Origin: Micromonospora sp. U21 | GTDB taxonomy: Bacteria > Actinomycetota > Actinomycetes > Mycobacteriales > Micromonosporaceae | Length of the DNA stretch: 64,000 bases | Reading direction: 5' to 3' | NCBI RefSeq assembly: GCF_018070045.1 | Contig: NZ_JAGPYK010000001.1 | Location: forward strand, 310,001 to 374,000 | Shown here: positions 27,693 to 44,165 of the stretch, piece by piece | How positions within the stretch are numbered: position 1 is the stretch's first letter | Layout: every line of letters starts with the position of its first letter | The notes under the pieces: generated by a model | Database searches by the model: none | The model's input: only the letters and a program-made list of their open reading frames with translations | Told to the model about the DNA's origin: nothing | Made by a program: the position numbers and the translations under genes

Positions 27693-30600
27693 ATGAGACG
27701 AACGAATCTGTTCAGGATGGTGGCGGCGACAGTCGCGGCCACGGTGATCGCCACCGTCGGGTCGGCGGCCGTCGCGAACCCGGCAGGCGCCGCCCGCCCA
27801 GCCGACACGACAGCCGCGTCGAGCACCGCCTTCGCCCCGGCGGCGACCAACCTCGCCCAGGGTCGACCGACGCAGGAGAGCGGCCACGCCGACGTCTACG
27901 ACTCGTCCAAGGTCGTCGACGGCAACGCGGGCAGCTACTGGGAGAGCGTCAACAATTCCTTCCCCGAGTGGGTGCAGGTCGATCTCGGCTCGTCGCAGGC
28001 CGTCAACCAGGTCGTGCTGAAGCTGCCGACCTCCGGGTGGGCGACCCGCACGCAGACTCTGAGCGTGCAGGGCAGCGCCAACGGTTCGTCGTTCACCGAC
28101 CTGGTCGCGTCGCAGACCTACACCTTCAACCCGGCGAGCGGCAGCACGGTCACGATCAACTTCAGCCAGACCACCACCCGCCACGTGCGGATCACCATCA
28201 CGGGCAACAGCGGCTGGCCGGCCGGCCAGCTGTCGGAGCTCGAGGTGTACGGCAGCGGCGGCGGCGGTCCGGACACGACCGCACCGAGCGTGCCGGGGAA
28301 CCTCTCGTACACCCAGTCGGGCACCACGATCACTCTCAACTGGGTCGCGTCCACCGACAACCCCGGTGGCAGCGGCATCGCCGGCTACGACATCTACCGC
28401 AACGGCACGTTCCTCCAGTCCGTCGCGAACGTGACCACCTTCAACGACACGCAGCCGACCACGGCGACCGTGTCGTATCACGTCCGGGCGCGCGACGTCG
28501 CGGGCAACCTCTCGGGCAACAGCAACACGGTGACCCGTACCGGCGGCGGGGACACCACCGCGCCGAGCGTCCCCGGCACGTTGTCGCACAGCACGTCGGG
28601 CAACACGATCACCCTCAACTGGGGCGCCTCCACCGACTCCGGTGGCAGCGGTCTGGCCGGCTACAACGTCTACCGCGGCGGCAGCCTGATCGCGACGCTG
28701 AGCACCGTCCTCACGTACCAGGACACGCAGCCGTCGACGGCGACCGTGTCGTACTACGTCCGCGCCCGCGACGGCGCGGGCAACCTGTCCGGCAACAGCA
28801 ACACGGTCACCCGGACCGGCACGGTGCCCCCCGCCTGCACGAACGTGGCGCAGGGCAAGACCATGACCGCGAGCGGCTCGACGTTCACCTTCACCCCCGA
28901 GAAGGCGAACGACGGGCAGCTCGCGACGTACTGGGAGGGCGCGGCGAGCTACCCGCAGAACCTGACCGTGGCCCTCGGCGCGAACCACTCGATCTCGGCC
29001 GTCACCGTCAAGCTGAACCCGGACCCGGCCTGGGGCACCCGTACGCAGACGATTCAGATCCTCGGTCGCGACCAGGCCTCGTCGGCGTACACCAATCTGG
29101 TGTCGGCGGCCAGCTACCAGTTCGTCCAGGGCAACAACGTGGTGCGCATCCCGGTCACCGCGACCACCGCCGACGTGCAGTTGCGGTTCACGGCCAACAG
29201 TGGGGCCCCGTCGGGCCAGGTGGCCGAGCTCGAGGTGTGCGGCACGCCGGCACCCAACCCCGACCTGGTCATCAGCTCGACGACCTGGTCGCCCGTGTCG
29301 CCGAGCGAGGCCACTGCGGTCACCCTCTCGGCCGTGGTCCAGAACGTGGGGTCGGCGGCAGCCGGAGCCACCACGGTCAACTTCAGCCTGGCCGGCGCGG
29401 TCGTCGGTAGCGCCGCGGTGGGCGCGCTCAGCGCCGAGGGCTCGACCACGGTCTCGTTCAACGCCGGAACCCGGCCGATGGGCAGCTACAGCGTCTCGGC
29501 GGTGGTCGACCCGACGAACACGATCGTCGAGCAGAACAACGGCAACAACAGCTACACCGCACCCTCGCCGCTGGTGGTCGCGCAGGCTCCGGGTCCCGAC
29601 CTGCAGGTCCTCAGCATCGCCTCCAACCCGCCGAACCCGGCCGTCGGGGCATCCGTCACGTTCACCGTGGCGGTCCGCAACCGCGGCACCACCGCGACCG
29701 GCGCGACCACGGTCACCCGCCTGGCGGTGGGCAGCACCACGCTGAACACCAACACCGCCTCGATAGCCGCCGGCGCCACGGTCAACGTGGCTGTCGCCGG
29801 AAGCTGGACGGCCACCAGTGGCGGCGCCACCATCACCGCCACCGCCGACGCGACCAACACGGTCGTCGAGACCAACGAGACCAACAACGCGTTCTCCCAG
29901 TCGATCGTGGTCGGGCGTGGGGCGGCGGTCCCGTACGTCTCCTACGAGGCGGAGGCCGCCCAGTACCAGGGCACGCTGCTGGAGGCCGACCCATTGCGCA
30001 CCTTCGGTCACACCAACTTCGCGACCGAGTCCTCCGGCCGCAAGTCGGTACGGCTGAACAGCACCGGACAGTTCGTCCAGTTCACCTCGACCAACCCCGC
30101 CAACGCCATCGTGGTGCGCAACTCCATCCCGGATGCTCCCGGCGGTGGCGGCATCGAGGCGACGATCAGCCTCTACATCAACGACGTCTTCTCCCGGAAG
30201 CTGAGCCTGTCGTCGCGGCACAGTTGGCTCTACGGCAACACCGACGGCCCCGAGGCGCTGACCAACACCCCGCAGGCGGACGCCCGACGGCTGTTCGACG
30301 AGTCGAACGCCCTGCTGGCGCAGTCCTACCCGGCCGGTACCCGGTTCAGGTTGCAGCGCGATGCCGGCGACTCGGCCTCGTTCTACGTCATCGACATGAT
30401 CGACCTGGAGCAGGTGGCGCCGGCGGCGAGCCAGCCGGCCGGGTGCACCTCGATCACCGCGTATGGTGCCGTCCCGAACGACGGGCTCGACGACACCACC
30501 GCCATCCAGCGTGCGGTGACCGACGACCAGAACGGGGTCATCGGCTGCGTCTGGATCCCGGCGGGGCAGTGGCGGCAGGAGCAGAAGATCCTGACCGACG

Positions 30601-38624: not shown

Positions 38625-39209
38625 TCAGCTGTTCCAGTGCTGGGCGACCAGGTCGGTGGCCTGCTGTTCCCACTGGGCGTAGGCGTCGGGGTAGGCCGAG
38701 ACCTGCACGGTCTGCGCGGCGTCGGTCAACGCCATGTCCTGCCACCCGTCGACCTGCTTCAGGCCCTTGAGGAACGCGGTGGTGGAGTACTCGGGGTCGG
38801 TGATCTGCTCCGGCGTGCCCCAACCCGAGCTGGGGCGCTGCTGGAACAGGCCCAGCGAGTCGTGGTCGTTGCGGTCGCCGAGGTGACCCAGGTTCTCCAG
38901 CTTGGACTCCTGCAGGCTGGTGGCGATCGAGATGACCGCGGCCCGCTCGGGCAGCCCGGCCTTCTTCGTCGCGGCGATGATCGCCTTGACATTGCCGGTC
39001 TGCTCGTCGTTCAGATCGATGCGCGACTGCGCACCCTGAGTACCGTGCGGGATCAGCTTGCCCATGTCGGGCTTGTCCGCCTGCACCACAGCAACCGACT
39101 TGGCATCCACCGTCGGAGTGCCAGCGTGAGCGATCGGACCGGCGAAGACACCACCGGCGAACGCGAGACCAGCAACCGACAGCACGCTCTTACGAATGAT
39201 CGTGTTCAT
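38625..39209 (-). CDS. Secreted lysozyme-like / transglycosylase-like protein
   Basis: A 194-residue protein with a signal peptide (about 1-29, ending IAHAG) and a lysozyme-fold core: AVISIATSLQESKLENL carries the putative catalytic Glu, and SLGLFQQRPSSGWGT is the QQRP-type motif of actinobacterial transglycosylase-like proteins. It probably acts on peptidoglycan outside the cell. The ATG at 39209 follows a good site, GAAGGAG. Upstream, on the same strand, three tandem promoter-like repeats occur (39366-39577), so expression is probably under unusual control. Confidence 0.8.
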   Translation of the reverse strand: MNTIIRKSVLSVAGLAFAGGVFAGPIAHAGTPTVDAKSVAVVQADKPDMGKLIPHGTQGAQSRIDLNDEQTGNVKAIIAATKKAGLPERAAVISIATSLQESKLENLGHLGDRNDHDSLGLFQQRPSSGWGTPEQITDPEYSTTAFLKGLKQVDGWQDMALTDAAQTVQVSAYPDAYAQWEQQATDLVAQHWNS

Positions 39210-39365
39210 CAGGGGTCAGCTCCTTCAGGGGGTAGACACCCACCGCCACACGGGGGAAACGGCGTGCGGGTGCGAGCACCTCGTCCGGCGCTTTCAACAC
39301 AAGGGGGGAAAGTCTTCACGGTCGGCGGCCTACAAGCCGGGAGGCTCGTGGCGCCGGAACTGTGT

Positions 39366-39577
39366 GTAACGACCGCCGGGCCGAGCCCATTCCAGGGCTG
39401 GCGCATCCAACAGGCACCCCGTTCGGGGGTGCTGGTGCGGTCGGTCGGGAGTCTGCAACGACCGCGCACCTGCGGGCATTCCAACCCCGGCCGCGCTGCC
39501 AACCCGCGGGGCGGGTGGCGGGCCGGTGGTGCTGCGATCGTCAGGGTATGTAACGACCCCCGGCCCGCCACGATTCC
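39366..39577 (-). promoter_or_regulatory. Three tandem GGAAT-N18-GTT repeats upstream of the lysozyme-like gene
   Basis: On the minus strand GGAAT is followed after exactly 18 bases by GTT at 39577-39552, 39482-39457 and 39391-39366. The copies are 91 and 95 bp apart, and similar sequence around them (GGTCGTTACA and downstream bases) shows that they arose by repetition. GGAAT-N18-GTT resembles the promoters of SigR/ECF-type sigma factors of actinobacteria. Promoter function is inference. Confidence 0.5.
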
Positions 39578-39675
39578 ACCCCACGGATGCAGCCGGTCAC
39601 AACCCAGAAACCCCCTGATACCGGACACCCGGCACGAGATCACCGACCGTTCCGACGTCGGATGCGCCCGCCGGC

Positions 39676-39756
39676 GTTGATCGACTCGGTATCGGCGATA
39701 TCGGGGCATCCGAGGGCCGTGGACACCGCGACATCCGCGTACCGAGTCGACCATCG
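39676..39756. repeat. Palindromic GATCGAC element, copy 2
   Basis: Left arm 39679-39711 has 28 of 33 bases in common with the left arm at 31715-31747. The right arm (39721-39756) pairs imperfectly with it. Confidence 0.8.
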
Positions 39757-39798
39757 CGGGCAGGGCGATCCGGAGGGCGAGGTGGTCGATGACCGGTA

Positions 39799-39841
39799 TA
39801 CCTCAGAGGCATATGTATGACTCACAGGTATAACGCTCACC
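39799..39841. repeat. Palindromic TATACCTCAGA element, copy 2
   Basis: Same arrangement as the element at 10700-10744, with TATACCTCAGAG, the centre GCATATGTATGA and AGGTATA, but three mismatches in the arms. The flank CGCTCA is also shared. Confidence 0.8.
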
Positions 39842-39931
39842 CCACCGACCGCCCCGGCAAGGGTCGGCATGAGCCACGTCCACCGCGAGCATCGGCCGGC
39901 AGCCGCCGGCGAGACGCGCCCAGGCGGCAGT

Positions 39932-40411
39932 GATCAACGCGAACGAACGACCGCCCCGACAGGACGGGACACACCGCGCCTCGCGCAGGAATCAGGACGG
40001 ACAAGGATCGCCGCCGGGATCGGGGCTTGCCGGAACCCCGCTCAGGGACCGGAAGAACCGGCGACGACCCGCCGGGGATGGGACTCACCGCACGTCGCGA
40101 GGATCGGAACCGATGGCGATCGCCGCCGGGATCGCGCTTGCCCTACCCCGGGCAGAGATCTGGACCGGACCGAACAATCCGCCGGGATGGGCTTGCCGGA
40201 CCCTCGCAGAGATCGGAACGGACTGAACAACCTGCCGGGGATCGGGCTTGCCAGGCGCACGAACAGATCGGAACGGACCGAGCAATCCGCCGGGGATCGG
40301 GGCTTGCCAGGCCCATCGCACAGATCGGAACGGACCGAACAACCCGCCGGGGATGGGCTTGGCGGACCCAGCGCAGGGATCACGACGGACGGCGACCGCC
40401 GGCGGGTTGGA
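39932..40411. repeat. Degenerate tandem array, nine units of about 55 bp
   Basis: Units start at about 39932, 39989, 40047, 40102, 40157, 40211, 40266, 40323 and 40378 (the last one partial), so the period is 54-58 bp. The best conserved part reads GATCGGAACGGACCGAACAA followed by CCGCCGGGGATCGGGGCTTGCC; the end of the unit varies more. The period is not a multiple of three, so the array is not a coding repeat. Copies near 40211-40377 are most alike and those near the left end are decayed. It lies 240-720 bp upstream of the ABC exporter. Confidence 0.85.
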
Positions 40412-40649
40412 GACCGCCGTGCCCACTGTCCCTCGGCGTTGTCCTTCATGGGTCTGCTGGTGGTCGTGAACTGGCTGGATCTTCCGACCGGACCGGCCGG
40501 TCGAGGACGTGCGGGAGGGGCTTCTCGGTATCGCGCGTCAGGCTGCCCATACCTGACCGGAAGCCCTGCTCAGAGCGGGTAAATCGGTTGAGTGGACACG
40601 TCGCGACAGGCACGCTGGGTTCTCCGCCACCCACGTCCGGAGGACACCG

Positions 40650-43600
40650 ATGCGCCTGCTCCGTGATCTGTGGGGCACCTCGCCACGTCGCCTGACGATC
40701 GTGGTCGTCCTGATCATGCTCGGCGCCGCCGGCCAGGCGGGCGCGTCGGCGCTGGCCGGAGCGGTGCTGGTGCATCGCTCGGCCAGCTTCTTCGCCGTAC
40801 TGGCCGCGGCGCTCGTCGCCGTGGTGCTCACCGACCTGGCGGTGAGCCTGCTGATGGCCGGCCTGACCGCCGACTGGTCCGCCGACGTGCGCCGGCGGCT
40901 CTGCCGGGTCGCGCTCGGGCAGGACCTGCCCACCCTGGAGACCACCCCGGTGGGTGAGCTGCTCGACCGCATCGACGGGGACGTCTACCAGGTGGCGTCG
41001 GCGGTCCGAAACCAGGGCACCCGGCTCGCCCAGGGCCTCTGCGTCGGCCTGCTGTCGATGGTCGTGGCGCTGGCCGTGTGGTGGCCGGCCGGGATCGCGA
41101 TGCTGCTGCTCACAGTGGTGCTCGCCGTCGGGCTGCGCCGGCCCACGGCGCGGATCGGTCCCGCCCGGATGGCCGAGGAGGAGGCATGGTCGGACCTGGC
41201 GGCGGTGATGGAGGAGGCGGTGCACGGCCAGGACGACGTACGCACCAGTCTGGCCCGGCCGTACGTGCTGCGGCTGTACGCCCGCAGGGCCGCCGCCGTG
41301 CTGTCCCGGGGCCGCCTGGTCTGGGTGCTGTCCGCCCGGGTTGCCGCGGCCGCCACCGCCACGATCCGGGCCGGCATCGGGGTGGTCGTGCTCGGCGGCG
41401 CCTGGGCGTTGGCCACCGACCGGATCGACGCTGCCCGCCTCACCGCCATCTGGCTGCTCGCTCTCGCCTTCGGAGCCACTGCGGAGCACGTCAGCCGGAT
41501 GGTGCCGGAACTCCAGGAGGCTCTCGGCGCCTGGGCCCGGGTGCAGCTGCTCCAGAAGGCCCGGCAGGAGCCCCTCGGCGGGGCCAGCCCGACCGATGGT
41601 GACCTGCGCATCCGCGACCTGACGTTCGGGTACGAGGTGAGCGGGCCGGAGAGCGGCCGGGGGGCCGCGCTGCGCGGGGTCAGCCTCACCTTCGCGCGTG
41701 GCCGCTCGTACGCGCTGATCGGGCGTACCGGTTCGGGCAAGTCGACACTGGCGAAGGTGCTCACCAGGGCCGTCGACGTGCCACCCGGAACGGTCTTCCT
41801 CGGCGGCACCGACCTGTGCGACCTCGACGTCGAGCAGCTGCGCCGCTGGGTGGCGCTGGTGCCGCAGCGCACCGAGATCCTGGCCGGCACGCTCGCCGAG
41901 AACGTCGCGCTCTTCGACCCGGAGCTGCTCGACGCCGCAGCCCGAGCGCTGGACGAGCTGGGCCTGGCCGGCTGGATCGCCGAACTGCCGGAAGGGCTGG
42001 CGACCCGGCTGGGGGAGGGCGGGCACGTGCTCTCCGCCGGTCAGGAGCAGCTGGTGGCGTTCGCCCGGATCCTGGTCCGCGACCCGCACGTGGTGATCCT
42101 CGACGAGGCCACCGCACGGCTGGACCCGGTCACCGAGGCACGGGTACAGCGGGCTACCGAACGGCTGCTGCGCGACCGGATCGGCATCGTCATCGCGCAC
42201 CGGCTCTCCTCCGTGCGCCGCTGTGACGAGGTGGTGGTGCTGGCCGACGGCACGGTGGTCGAGGCCGGCCCGCTCGAAACGTCGACGCGCTTCGCCGAGC
42301 TGCTCGCGACGAGCCACGCCGCCGCGTACGCCGCGGTGGTGCCGGCCGGCCGCACCGGCGCCGGCACCGACCTGCTGGTCGGCCCCGACCCGGCCGATGC
42401 CTGGCCGAGCGGGCCGGTGACCGCGCCGGTCGAGCCGGTCGGGCCGGTCGAGCCGAAACGTGCCGATCCGCCGCCGCTGCCGCCGGTTCCGCCGGCCCGG
42501 ACGCTGCGGGAGATCGTCCGACTCTGCACCAACGACCCCCGGTACGGGCTGGCCGCGATCGTGCTGTTCCTCGGGCTCTCCCTGCTCGGGCTGGACGGCC
42601 CGGTGCTGCCCTGGCTCTGGGCCGACCTGGTTGACGGGACCGGCAACCCGTACCTGCCGGCACTGGGCATCGTGGCCGGGCTGCTGGTCACCCTGCCGCT
42701 GCCGTTCTACACCCACGTCTGGTTCCCTCAGTGGTGGGTGCGGCAGATGCTGCGGATCAGCCTGCGCCTGGTGCACGGCCAGACCGGGCCGCGCCGGGTC
42801 AGCTCGCACACCCCGGCCGAGGTGGTGGCGCAGGGCGGTGACACCGAGCGGGTGGTCCAGCTCGCCGACAACGTGCTGGACCAGGCCGTCGCGCTGGTCC
42901 TGGTGGTCGCCATGACGGCGGTCACCGGCAGCGTCGTACCGGCGCTGTTCTTCCTCGGCACGATGGTCGTCTCCGGGCTGGCCGCGACGTTGTTCGGGCC
43001 GAAGCTCGAGCGTGCCGCCCGCGCGACGGTGGCGGCGCGTGCCGCCTTCGCCACCGCGCTGGTCTCCGCGCTCTCCGCGGCGCGGACGGTGAAGCTCGCC
43101 GGCGCGACCGCGGCGGTGCTACGCCACCTCGCCGATCTGGACGTGCTGCGCAGCGACCGGCAGCGGCGGGAGATCTCGGTGCAGGTGTGGTCGCGCTCCA
43201 CGCCGTCGGTGGCCAGCGGGCTGCTGCCGATCGGCGCGTGGGCGCTCTATCTGACGGGCGAGCTCTCTGCCGGGGCGGTGCTGGTGGCCGTCTCCACCCT
43301 CGGCGCGGCGCGCTGGTTCGCCTGGACCACCGCGTCGTTGATCTCCCAGCTGCCCTCCGCGCGGGTCTGGACCCGGCGCACGGTGGCGATGACCGGGGTG
43401 GGCGCGTACTCCGCCGGGGTGCCCGCGGTCGACCTGGCCGCCGGGACGGCCCCCGCGCCGACGCCGCCGCCCCGGCACCCGCTGCGCCGGCTGGAGCTGC
43501 GCGGCTTCGGCGTGGTGCACTCCGACGGCACGGCCGCCGTCCGGGACGTGGACCTGACCGTGCAACGCGGGCAGCTGGTTCTGGTCGTCGGGCCGGTCGG

Positions 43601-44165
43601 CTCGGGCAAGTCGTCGCTGCTGCGGGCGTTGGCCGGGATCGTGCACCACACCGGCGAGCTGTCCTGGAACGGTGACCCGGTCACCGAGCCGGAGCTGTTC
43701 CTGCGCCCCAACCAGGTCGGCTACGTCGGCCAGCTGCCCCGGGTGCTCTCCGGCACGGTGGCGGACAACATCGCGCTCGGCCACCAGGTGGACGCCGCCG
43801 GAGCGGTCAGCACCGCCCAGCTCGACCACGACCTCGCCGCCGCAGGTGGTGGGTTGGGCCTGCTCATCGGGCACAAGGGCACCCGGCTCTCCGGCGGCCA
43901 GCTCCAGCGGCTGGCGCTGGCCCGGGCGCTGGCGCCGCGTACCGAACTGCTGGTCGCCGACGACGTGTCGTCGGCGCTGGACGTCACCACCGAGCTGGCG
44001 CTGTGGCAGGCACTGCGCGCGCACGGGGTGACCGTGGTCGGCTCGACCGCGAAGCGCGCCGCGCTGGTCCGCGCCGACCACGTGGTGGTGCTGATCGGCG
44101 GCACGGTCGCCGCCCAGGGTGCCTGGCGGGACCTGGAGGGCGACTGGTCGCACCTGGCCGGGTGA
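40650..44165 (+). CDS. Fused ABC exporter with two permease-ATPase halves
   Basis: A 1,171-residue protein made of two membrane-plus-ATPase halves. NBD1 has Walker A GRTGSGKST (about 357), a variant signature LSAGQEQ (460) and Walker B VVILDEAT (480). NBD2 has GPVGSGKSS (980), LSGGQLQ (1080) and LLVADDVSS (1100), where Asp replaces the catalytic Glu. The odd signature and the odd Walker B would meet in the same ATP site, the pattern of heterodimeric exporters with one degenerate site. A proline-rich linker joins the halves (about 585-620). The ATG at 40650 follows CCGGAGGA. Substrate unknown. Confidence 0.9.
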   Translation: MRLLRDLWGTSPRRLTIVVVLIMLGAAGQAGASALAGAVLVHRSASFFAVLAAALVAVVLTDLAVSLLMAGLTADWSADVRRRLCRVALGQDLPTLETTPVGELLDRIDGDVYQVASAVRNQGTRLAQGLCVGLLSMVVALAVWWPAGIAMLLLTVVLAVGLRRPTARIGPARMAEEEAWSDLAAVMEEAVHGQDDVRTSLARPYVLRLYARRAAAVLSRGRLVWVLSARVAAAATATIRAGIGVVVLGGAWALATDRIDAARLTAIWLLALAFGATAEHVSRMVPELQEALGAWARVQLLQKARQEPLGGASPTDGDLRIRDLTFGYEVSGPESGRGAALRGVSLTFARGRSYALIGRTGSGKSTLAKVLTRAVDVPPGTVFLGGTDLCDLDVEQLRRWVALVPQRTEILAGTLAENVALFDPELLDAAARALDELGLAGWIAELPEGLATRLGEGGHVLSAGQEQLVAFARILVRDPHVVILDEATARLDPVTEARVQRATERLLRDRIGIVIAHRLSSVRRCDEVVVLADGTVVEAGPLETSTRFAELLATSHAAAYAAVVPAGRTGAGTDLLVGPDPADAWPSGPVTAPVEPVGPVEPKRADPPPLPPVPPARTLREIVRLCTNDPRYGLAAIVLFLGLSLLGLDGPVLPWLWADLVDGTGNPYLPALGIVAGLLVTLPLPFYTHVWFPQWWVRQMLRISLRLVHGQTGPRRVSSHTPAEVVAQGGDTERVVQLADNVLDQAVALVLVVAMTAVTGSVVPALFFLGTMVVSGLAATLFGPKLERAARATVAARAAFATALVSALSAARTVKLAGATAAVLRHLADLDVLRSDRQRREISVQVWSRSTPSVASGLLPIGAWALYLTGELSAGAVLVAVSTLGAARWFAWTTASLISQLPSARVWTRRTVAMTGVGAYSAGVPAVDLAAGTAPAPTPPPRHPLRRLELRGFGVVHSDGTAAVRDVDLTVQRGQLVLVVGPVGSGKSSLLRALAGIVHHTGELSWNGDPVTEPELFLRPNQVGYVGQLPRVLSGTVADNIALGHQVDAAGAVSTAQLDHDLAAAGGGLGLLIGHKGTRLSGGQLQRLALARALAPRTELLVADDVSSALDVTTELALWQALRAHGVTVVGSTAKRAALVRADHVVVLIGGTVAAQGAWRDLEGDWSHLAG

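Follow-up and report, generated by a model that had tools for sequence, protein, structure and literature searches.

We consider it very likely that the tandem array of nine ~55-bp units found in a 64,000-nucleotide stretch of the Micromonospora sp. U21 genome (the whole of which is referred to as the window) is a lineage-specific intergenic minisatellite, ordinary in kind, located in the spacer at the distal end of a muramidase cassette that is present in several copies. The number of units differs between copies, the array diverges rapidly, it is absent or replaced in most of the relatives examined, it is associated with a muramidase gene, and it borders the relic of a tetR-family gene. The array is not a control element of the ABC exporter that it now adjoins. 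On the minus strand, the cassette covers ~1.9 kb and has the order muramidase gene, three GGAAT-N18-GTT sites, inverted repeat, dyad and array. The features of this region are the following.

38625–39209, minus strand: secreted GH184-type muramidase-like gene (194 aa), assigned by phmmer against PDB sequences; the array lies in its upstream region
39368–39393, minus strand: SigR-type promoter-like site GGAAT-N18-GTT nearest the gene, from a motif search
39457–39482, minus strand: middle SigR-type promoter-like site GGAAT-N18-GTT, from a motif search
39552–39577, minus strand: distal SigR-type promoter-like site GGAAT-N18-GTT, from a motif search
39659–39772, no strand assigned: inverted repeat with 33-nt arms, 79% complementary, and 48 nt between them; also in paralogous copies
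39797–39832, no strand assigned: 36-bp dyad, TATACCTCAGAGGCATA-TG-TATGACTCACAGGTATA, free of gaps in six own-genome copies
39928–40424, no strand assigned: tandem array of nine imperfect ~55-bp units; plus-strand consensus CGCAGGGATCGGAACGGACnGCGAnCnCCGCCGGGATnGGGCTTGCCGGACCC
40425–40556, plus strand: broken remnant of a tetR-family gene (3' end), whose junction forms the right edge of the array
about 40560–40649, plus strand: conserved stretch upstream of the exporter, 73–94% per 20-bp bin versus 14 relatives
40650–44165, plus strand: ABC exporter gene with two ABC modules, a neighbor rather than a partner of the array

With boundaries set by hand, the nine units measure 53–57 bp across 39928–40424, so that the limits of 39932–40411 given by an earlier sequence-only reading were correct to ~15 bp. 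The nine-unit, ~55-bp array described in that reading is real: TRF rows at 40123–40390 had periods of 55 and 112 and scores of 279–311, compared to a best score of 71 in 300 dinucleotide shuffles of 39300–40650. Self-match of the array was 0.45 at a lag of 55 and 0.44 at a lag of 112, against a mean of 0.29 over lags 20–129. The left units are the least alike, as had been noticed, and one left-end unit and the third unit of the array had no match to the unit HMM. An alignment of 22 hand-set units, taken from three of the six copies, had two invariant columns and nine conserved at ≥90%. Gap lengths between paralogous arrays were mostly not multiples of three, and substitutions fell about equally over the three frames (14/13/14 and 35/36/28 for paralogous arrays). 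The frame and gap tests rule out a protein repeat, in agreement with the sequence-only reading, despite long open frames that cross the array on both strands. The array is therefore a non-coding series of head-to-tail, imperfect direct repeats of tens of bases, beyond chance expectation, that is, an intergenic minisatellite. A CRISPR array was also rejected; the units are similar over most of their length and vary throughout, with no unique spacers. Elsewhere in the window, a 276-bp tandem duplication (28316–28820, TRF score 679) lies, by eye, in a coding region for repeated extracellular domains.

Queried with the array, the U21 genome (7.47 Mb in 99 contigs) returned nine matches on four contigs, all of them inside paralogous copies of the muramidase unit. 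In the best copies the shared sequence extends over ~1.9 kb of the window, from 38535 to about 40430, with 85–90% identity, and comprises the gene, the promoters and the spacer. The unit that carries the array is thus the divergent muramidase gene instead of the exporter to which the array had been tied. The genome has seven cassettes. One has lost its gene to an IS, and another appears to be split, its parts lying at the ends of contigs C28 and C67. There are five full copies of the muramidase plus one diverged copy with a TGA within the matched stretch. At L011:14847–15701, an IS with a DDE (IS4/5-type) transposase replaces the muramidase gene, and the promoters and array remain.

In the genus at large, matches with E up to 1e-50 occurred in 41 of 41 Micromonospora genomes including U21, at 1–11 per genome (diverged paralogs included) with a hand-counted median of 6; three genomes had only one, weaker match. 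A DNA query with the whole unit gave matches in 160/160 genus genomes, U21 included, and among the matches listed, none from a relative extended past window ~39870 or entered the array. We collected 88 full copies from 26 genomes, mostly complete ones, picking the loci by hand from hit lists. Protein identity of the muramidase averaged 93% within a genome versus 82% between genomes, and for 66 of 87 proteins the nearest relative was in the same genome. This pattern suggests exchange or recent duplication among the muramidase copies. The window muramidase itself is 94–95% identical to copies at other loci in G004 and G078 versus 85% to the syntenic G078 copy. Replacement of the window muramidase by a paralog through recombination is suggested.

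Searched against Pfam, the muramidase-like protein had no match at E ≤ 1, and its one match in NCBIfam, at E 0.14, was not meaningful. By phmmer against PDB sequences it matched 8b2h (E 6.9e-15) and 8b2e (E 2.5e-12), with Glu101 aligned, by hand-counted positions, to residue 125 of 8b2h and residue 41 of 8b2e. The relevant part of PMC10394673 gives residues 125 and 41 as the catalytic Glu of TtGH184 and KsGH184, respectively. Asp115 aligned with Asp66 of 8b2e, and both Glu101 and Asp115 were kept in 87/87 aligned proteins. On sequence similarity and the conserved catalytic Glu, the protein is a GH184 member with putative muramidase activity. It resembles the known GH184 muramidases in matching two of their PDB entries and in keeping the catalytic Glu and the Asp that follows (PMC10394673, in the part concerned). 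It also resembles them in being without an SH3-like domain, which the same part of PMC10394673 states to be absent from bacterial members of the family. It differs in that multicopy genes and tandem promoters go unmentioned in that part of PMC10394673.

The promoter-like sites upstream of the gene are a recurrent part of the cassette. GGAAT-N18-GTT, quoted as the SigR consensus of Streptomyces coelicolor in the relevant part of PMC2375139, was observed 3 times in the window versus 0.29 expected. The sites upstream of the muramidase gene are of SigR type by motif, and SigR dependence is putative. Allowing GGAA[TC]-N18-GTT, two or more sites were present within 620 bp of the gene in 84 of the 88 full muramidase copies from 26 genomes (one site in 4 copies, two in 45, three in 29, four in 7 and five in 3), compared to an expectation of 0.0065 per 620 bp from a control region farther upstream.

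Strict matches to the dyad pattern were rare, in 9 of 100 muramidase copies and 2 of 15 syntenic loci, and so conservation of the dyad holds only for the U21 genome and a few relatives. Its core, ATRCCTCWGAGGYAT, occurred at 11 places in the genome versus 0 in a backward-read control. Of the 11, five are not in the six array-bearing cassettes. The split seventh cassette has one of these five and, as judged with a simple gene caller, three are between convergent genes and one is between co-directed genes. A role solely as promoter operator is doubtful, since three of these five matches are between convergent genes; the dyad may be a palindromic element scattered through the genome, or a site for a protein that has no connection with promoters. 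The distal end of the array is closed by a strong hairpin in five paralogous copies, with arms of ~25 bp (e.g., L012:5255–5350), and the window copy has lost it. A 131-base probe containing the hairpin had 22 matches in the genome, some outside cassettes and some due to the hairpin itself pairing on the opposite strand. At L270, about 560–660, the inverted repeat of the seventh, split cassette has an expanded loop made of a run of short GATATTCGC-type repeats.

Alignment of the six own-genome copies located the variation within the cassette. Mean pairwise identity of the array was 76.6%, with 24.8% gapped positions, compared to 96.5% for the promoter stretch, 94.7% for the gap-free dyad stretch and 96.1% for the muramidase gene (five copies, the IS-hit copy being without the gene). 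The 91 bp just before the array (77.0%) and the inverted repeat (86.3%) have also diverged. Unit number differs between the own-genome copies, and spacing near 55 bp is kept in all six, although the units of any one array are quite unlike each other. After the dyad of the split seventh copy, about one terminal unit was seen by eye, and the unit HMM gave no match there with E up to 5. The array thus behaves as a minisatellite in that copy number differs between related loci, with some gaps that fit whole units and others that do not. Two large gaps in the alignment of paralogous arrays (111 and 166 bp) correspond to about two and three units; no whole number of units fits the others (64, 131 and 137 bp), and one paralogous copy has a 185-bp insertion of other sequence. 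The unequal crossover proposed in the sequence-only reading would account for the changed unit number and the 111- and 166-bp gaps, though not readily for those of 64, 131 and 137 bp. Between copies, positions conserved among units diverged by 12.1% (48/398) versus 15.7% (24/153) for variable positions. The corresponding test of constraint on the unit was not significant (Spearman 0.27, P = 0.066), and a weak constraint is possible.

Outside U21, the unit was seldom found. Array DNA compared with 60 relatives (the best ten candidates scored in most) gave matches in five, all short (40–64 bp). The unit HMM, run on 80 loci of other species (923 kb) and on 15 of the shorter loci, yielded three matches at E < 0.01 (G168, G139 and G154), each a single unit, 615–1,085 bp upstream of a muramidase copy and in the same orientation. 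In view of these three positions, the unit looks like an old piece of the muramidase spacer that was amplified in the U21 genome.

The locus itself has kept its order, acetyltransferase gene, muramidase and ABC exporter. Both flanking genes were found in 15/15 relatives, and the muramidase lies between them in 14/14 relatives whose spacer was fetched (G029 was left out, with its two flanking genes on different contigs). The syntenic locus of G078 has a related array with five unit matches (E 1e-7 to 0.6; three with E up to 0.01), and that of G139 has one unit match (E 0.0084). Tandem arrays of unrelated sequence lie between promoters and exporter in G168, G004, G159, G034 and G002, and in seven of the 14 relatives no array was recognizable next to the cassette. 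G154 and G152 have arrays among extra genes (read by eye), in G152 also among the promoter sites; further arrays lie about 1.7 kb away in G073, among the promoter sites in G099, and on the gene side of the promoters in G096 and G177, and G174 has none. The search for the unit in relatives that had been recommended as a check therefore returned a related array in G078 and single units in G139, G168 and G154, and found the unit missing in most of the loci examined.

A role in control of the exporter, as had been suggested, is contradicted by this synteny: the exporter is kept in 15/15 relatives, a related array in 1/14 and a single unit in 1/14, which rules out an exporter operator. The conserved stretch upstream of the exporter lies outside the array and does not contact it, and the array abuts the tetR relic. 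A tetR-family gene is open in G154 and G152, where it sits between the cassette and the exporter (the G154 protein matches Pfam TetR_N); its tail is also kept in G078 and is visible by alignment in G004 and G073. The intact gene would be the ancestral state, which would set the direction of decay. Because the right edge of the array abuts this relic, the exporter probably became its neighbor through gene loss.

We weighed several functional readings against that of an ordinary minisatellite. It appears unlikely to us that the array, which lies 350–850 bp upstream of the most distal promoter-like site, serves the muramidase promoters as a platform with several protein-binding sites, such as an enhancer, silencer or nucleoid site. 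Such a platform would fit the position of the array upstream of the muramidase in all six array-bearing copies, the maintained spacing near 55 bp and the nearly invariant columns of the unit. However, 55 bp corresponds to 5.24 helical turns (5.05–5.43 for 53–57 bp) rather than the roughly five turns first given, so neighboring units are out of helical phase; the array is among the least conserved parts of the cassette, with seemingly about one unit in the seventh copy by eye, and it is missing in most of the examined relatives that keep the gene and promoters. What is left of the platform proposed in the sequence-only reading is a possible weak one, given the lack of phase and a constraint test at P = 0.066, short of significance. 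The partition-like site raised in the same reading was not borne out, with 0 matches in the window to the actinobacterial parS 16-mer consensus at up to 3 mismatches.

We give little credence to the array as a contingency (phase-variable) promoter repeat, whose unit number would drift between cells and tune muramidase expression, a mode of control that has been suggested for promoter repeats of Mycobacterium tuberculosis. The idea gains from the differing unit number between copies and from a mycobacterial precedent: promoter tandem repeats (VNTRs) of M. tuberculosis, which are 54–56 bp at cysG, vary in copy number (PMC12817950, in the part concerned). Like the U21 array, they are upstream, imperfect direct repeats of tens of bases in an actinobacterium, with copy-number variation by whole units, but as that part of PMC12817950 describes them, they hold promoter sequence near the gene and vary among strains. 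The U21 array instead lies far upstream of the promoter-like sites, starting ~350 bp from the distal GGAAT-N18-GTT, and contains no such site (all three, the only promoter type scanned for, are outside), so a change in unit number would not alter the number or spacing of these sites. Its variation, moreover, is known only from paralogous copies and between species. A repeat RNA is, in our judgment, very improbable; its transcription would start at a promoter near the dyad and terminate at the strong distal hairpin of five copies. The hairpin-containing segment at the distal array end in these paralogs is what speaks for it, but the window copy has lost the hairpin and the hairpin probe also matches outside cassettes. 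Folding of the array did not go beyond shuffles on either strand (z –0.17 and –0.79, 60 shuffles each), no consensus pairing was found among 22 units, and no Rfam family matched the array at the gathering threshold; on these counts the repeat RNA of the sequence-only reading also finds no backing.

The MIRU-VNTR of mycobacteria are dispersed tandem arrays of roughly 50–100 bp at several intergenic loci per genome. The U21 arrays are likewise dispersed over several intergenic loci of one genome, a likeness by description only, but they differ in that every member of the family found in the U21 genome lies upstream of the same multicopy gene. Literature searches on Micromonospora, muramidase or GH184 returned no title or abstract opening that describes the cassette or the array.

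The occurrence of unrelated arrays at the same locus bears on whether the spacer is a hot spot. Counting TRF arrays with a period of at least 7 in spacers and control gaps of 200 bp or more, arrays scoring ≥60 were present in 26/66 muramidase spacers versus 51/224 other gaps (P = 0.011), those scoring ≥100 in 18/66 versus 27/224 (P = 0.006), and those scoring ≥200 in 10/66 versus 11/224 (P = 0.012). At ≥250 the difference was not significant (5/66 versus 7/224, P = 0.15). Counted by coverage (at least 40 bp), spacers and gaps differed little (25/88 spacers of any length versus 49/227 gaps of at least 200 bp). Tandem bases made up 9.4% of the spacer, compared to 4.2% of other non-coding and 0.65% of coding sequence, with genes called by a simple caller that in one run missed the window PadR-type gene and the L141 muramidase. 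Genome by genome (n = 26), the spacer was richer in 15, poorer in 8 and equal in 3 (P = 0.024). Intergenic regions of the genus often contain tandem arrays, as the 51 of 224 control gaps of at least 200 bp attest, and such arrays are ~1.7 to 3 times more frequent in the muramidase spacer, so their place may not be random. We did not adopt a firm hot-spot claim, given the P of 0.15 at the top score cut, the small difference by coverage, the non-independence of the copies and the hand-picking of loci. As the copies are related, the enrichment is a lead and not proof.

A bolder extension of this lead, which taken as a whole we regard as a long shot, is that tandem arrays keep arising in one place, the spacer that separates the promoters of this genus-wide, multicopy muramidase cassette from the neighboring gene. 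Unrelated arrays with periods of 7 to about 140 bp would form there, in the U21 genome beside the 36-bp dyad and strong hairpins, which may stall or break replication, and array length or structure may set the firing of the tandem SigR-type promoters of the muramidase.

Returning to the lineage-specific minisatellite that we favor, its history would be as follows. A ~55-bp stretch that is single in some related species, and that lies in the distal part of the spacer ahead of a secreted, multicopy muramidase gene, would have been amplified to about nine copies; we infer slippage or unequal recombination as the mechanism. The array would then have been carried and reshuffled among the muramidase gene copies of the U21 genome, changing faster than the surrounding gene, promoters and dyad. 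Decay of the intervening tetR-family gene would have brought it to adjoin the ABC exporter, and it is because of this decay that the two would now stand side by side. The array itself would have no essential function; an effect on the muramidase promoters is possible.

These results take the array off the list of candidate regulatory platforms; it looked regulatory since it is carried by a duplicated gene-plus-promoter unit and since, probably through loss of a gene, it ended up next to the exporter. The better subject is the secreted muramidase-like gene, which is multicopy in most of the Micromonospora genomes searched and whose tandem promoter-like sites, of stress type, usually number two or three per copy, with a maximum of five. 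We find this multicopy cassette more interesting than the array it carries. If the arrays in its spacer did set how the promoters fire, each genome would carry a cell-wall-enzyme gene family whose control regions are tuned in different ways.
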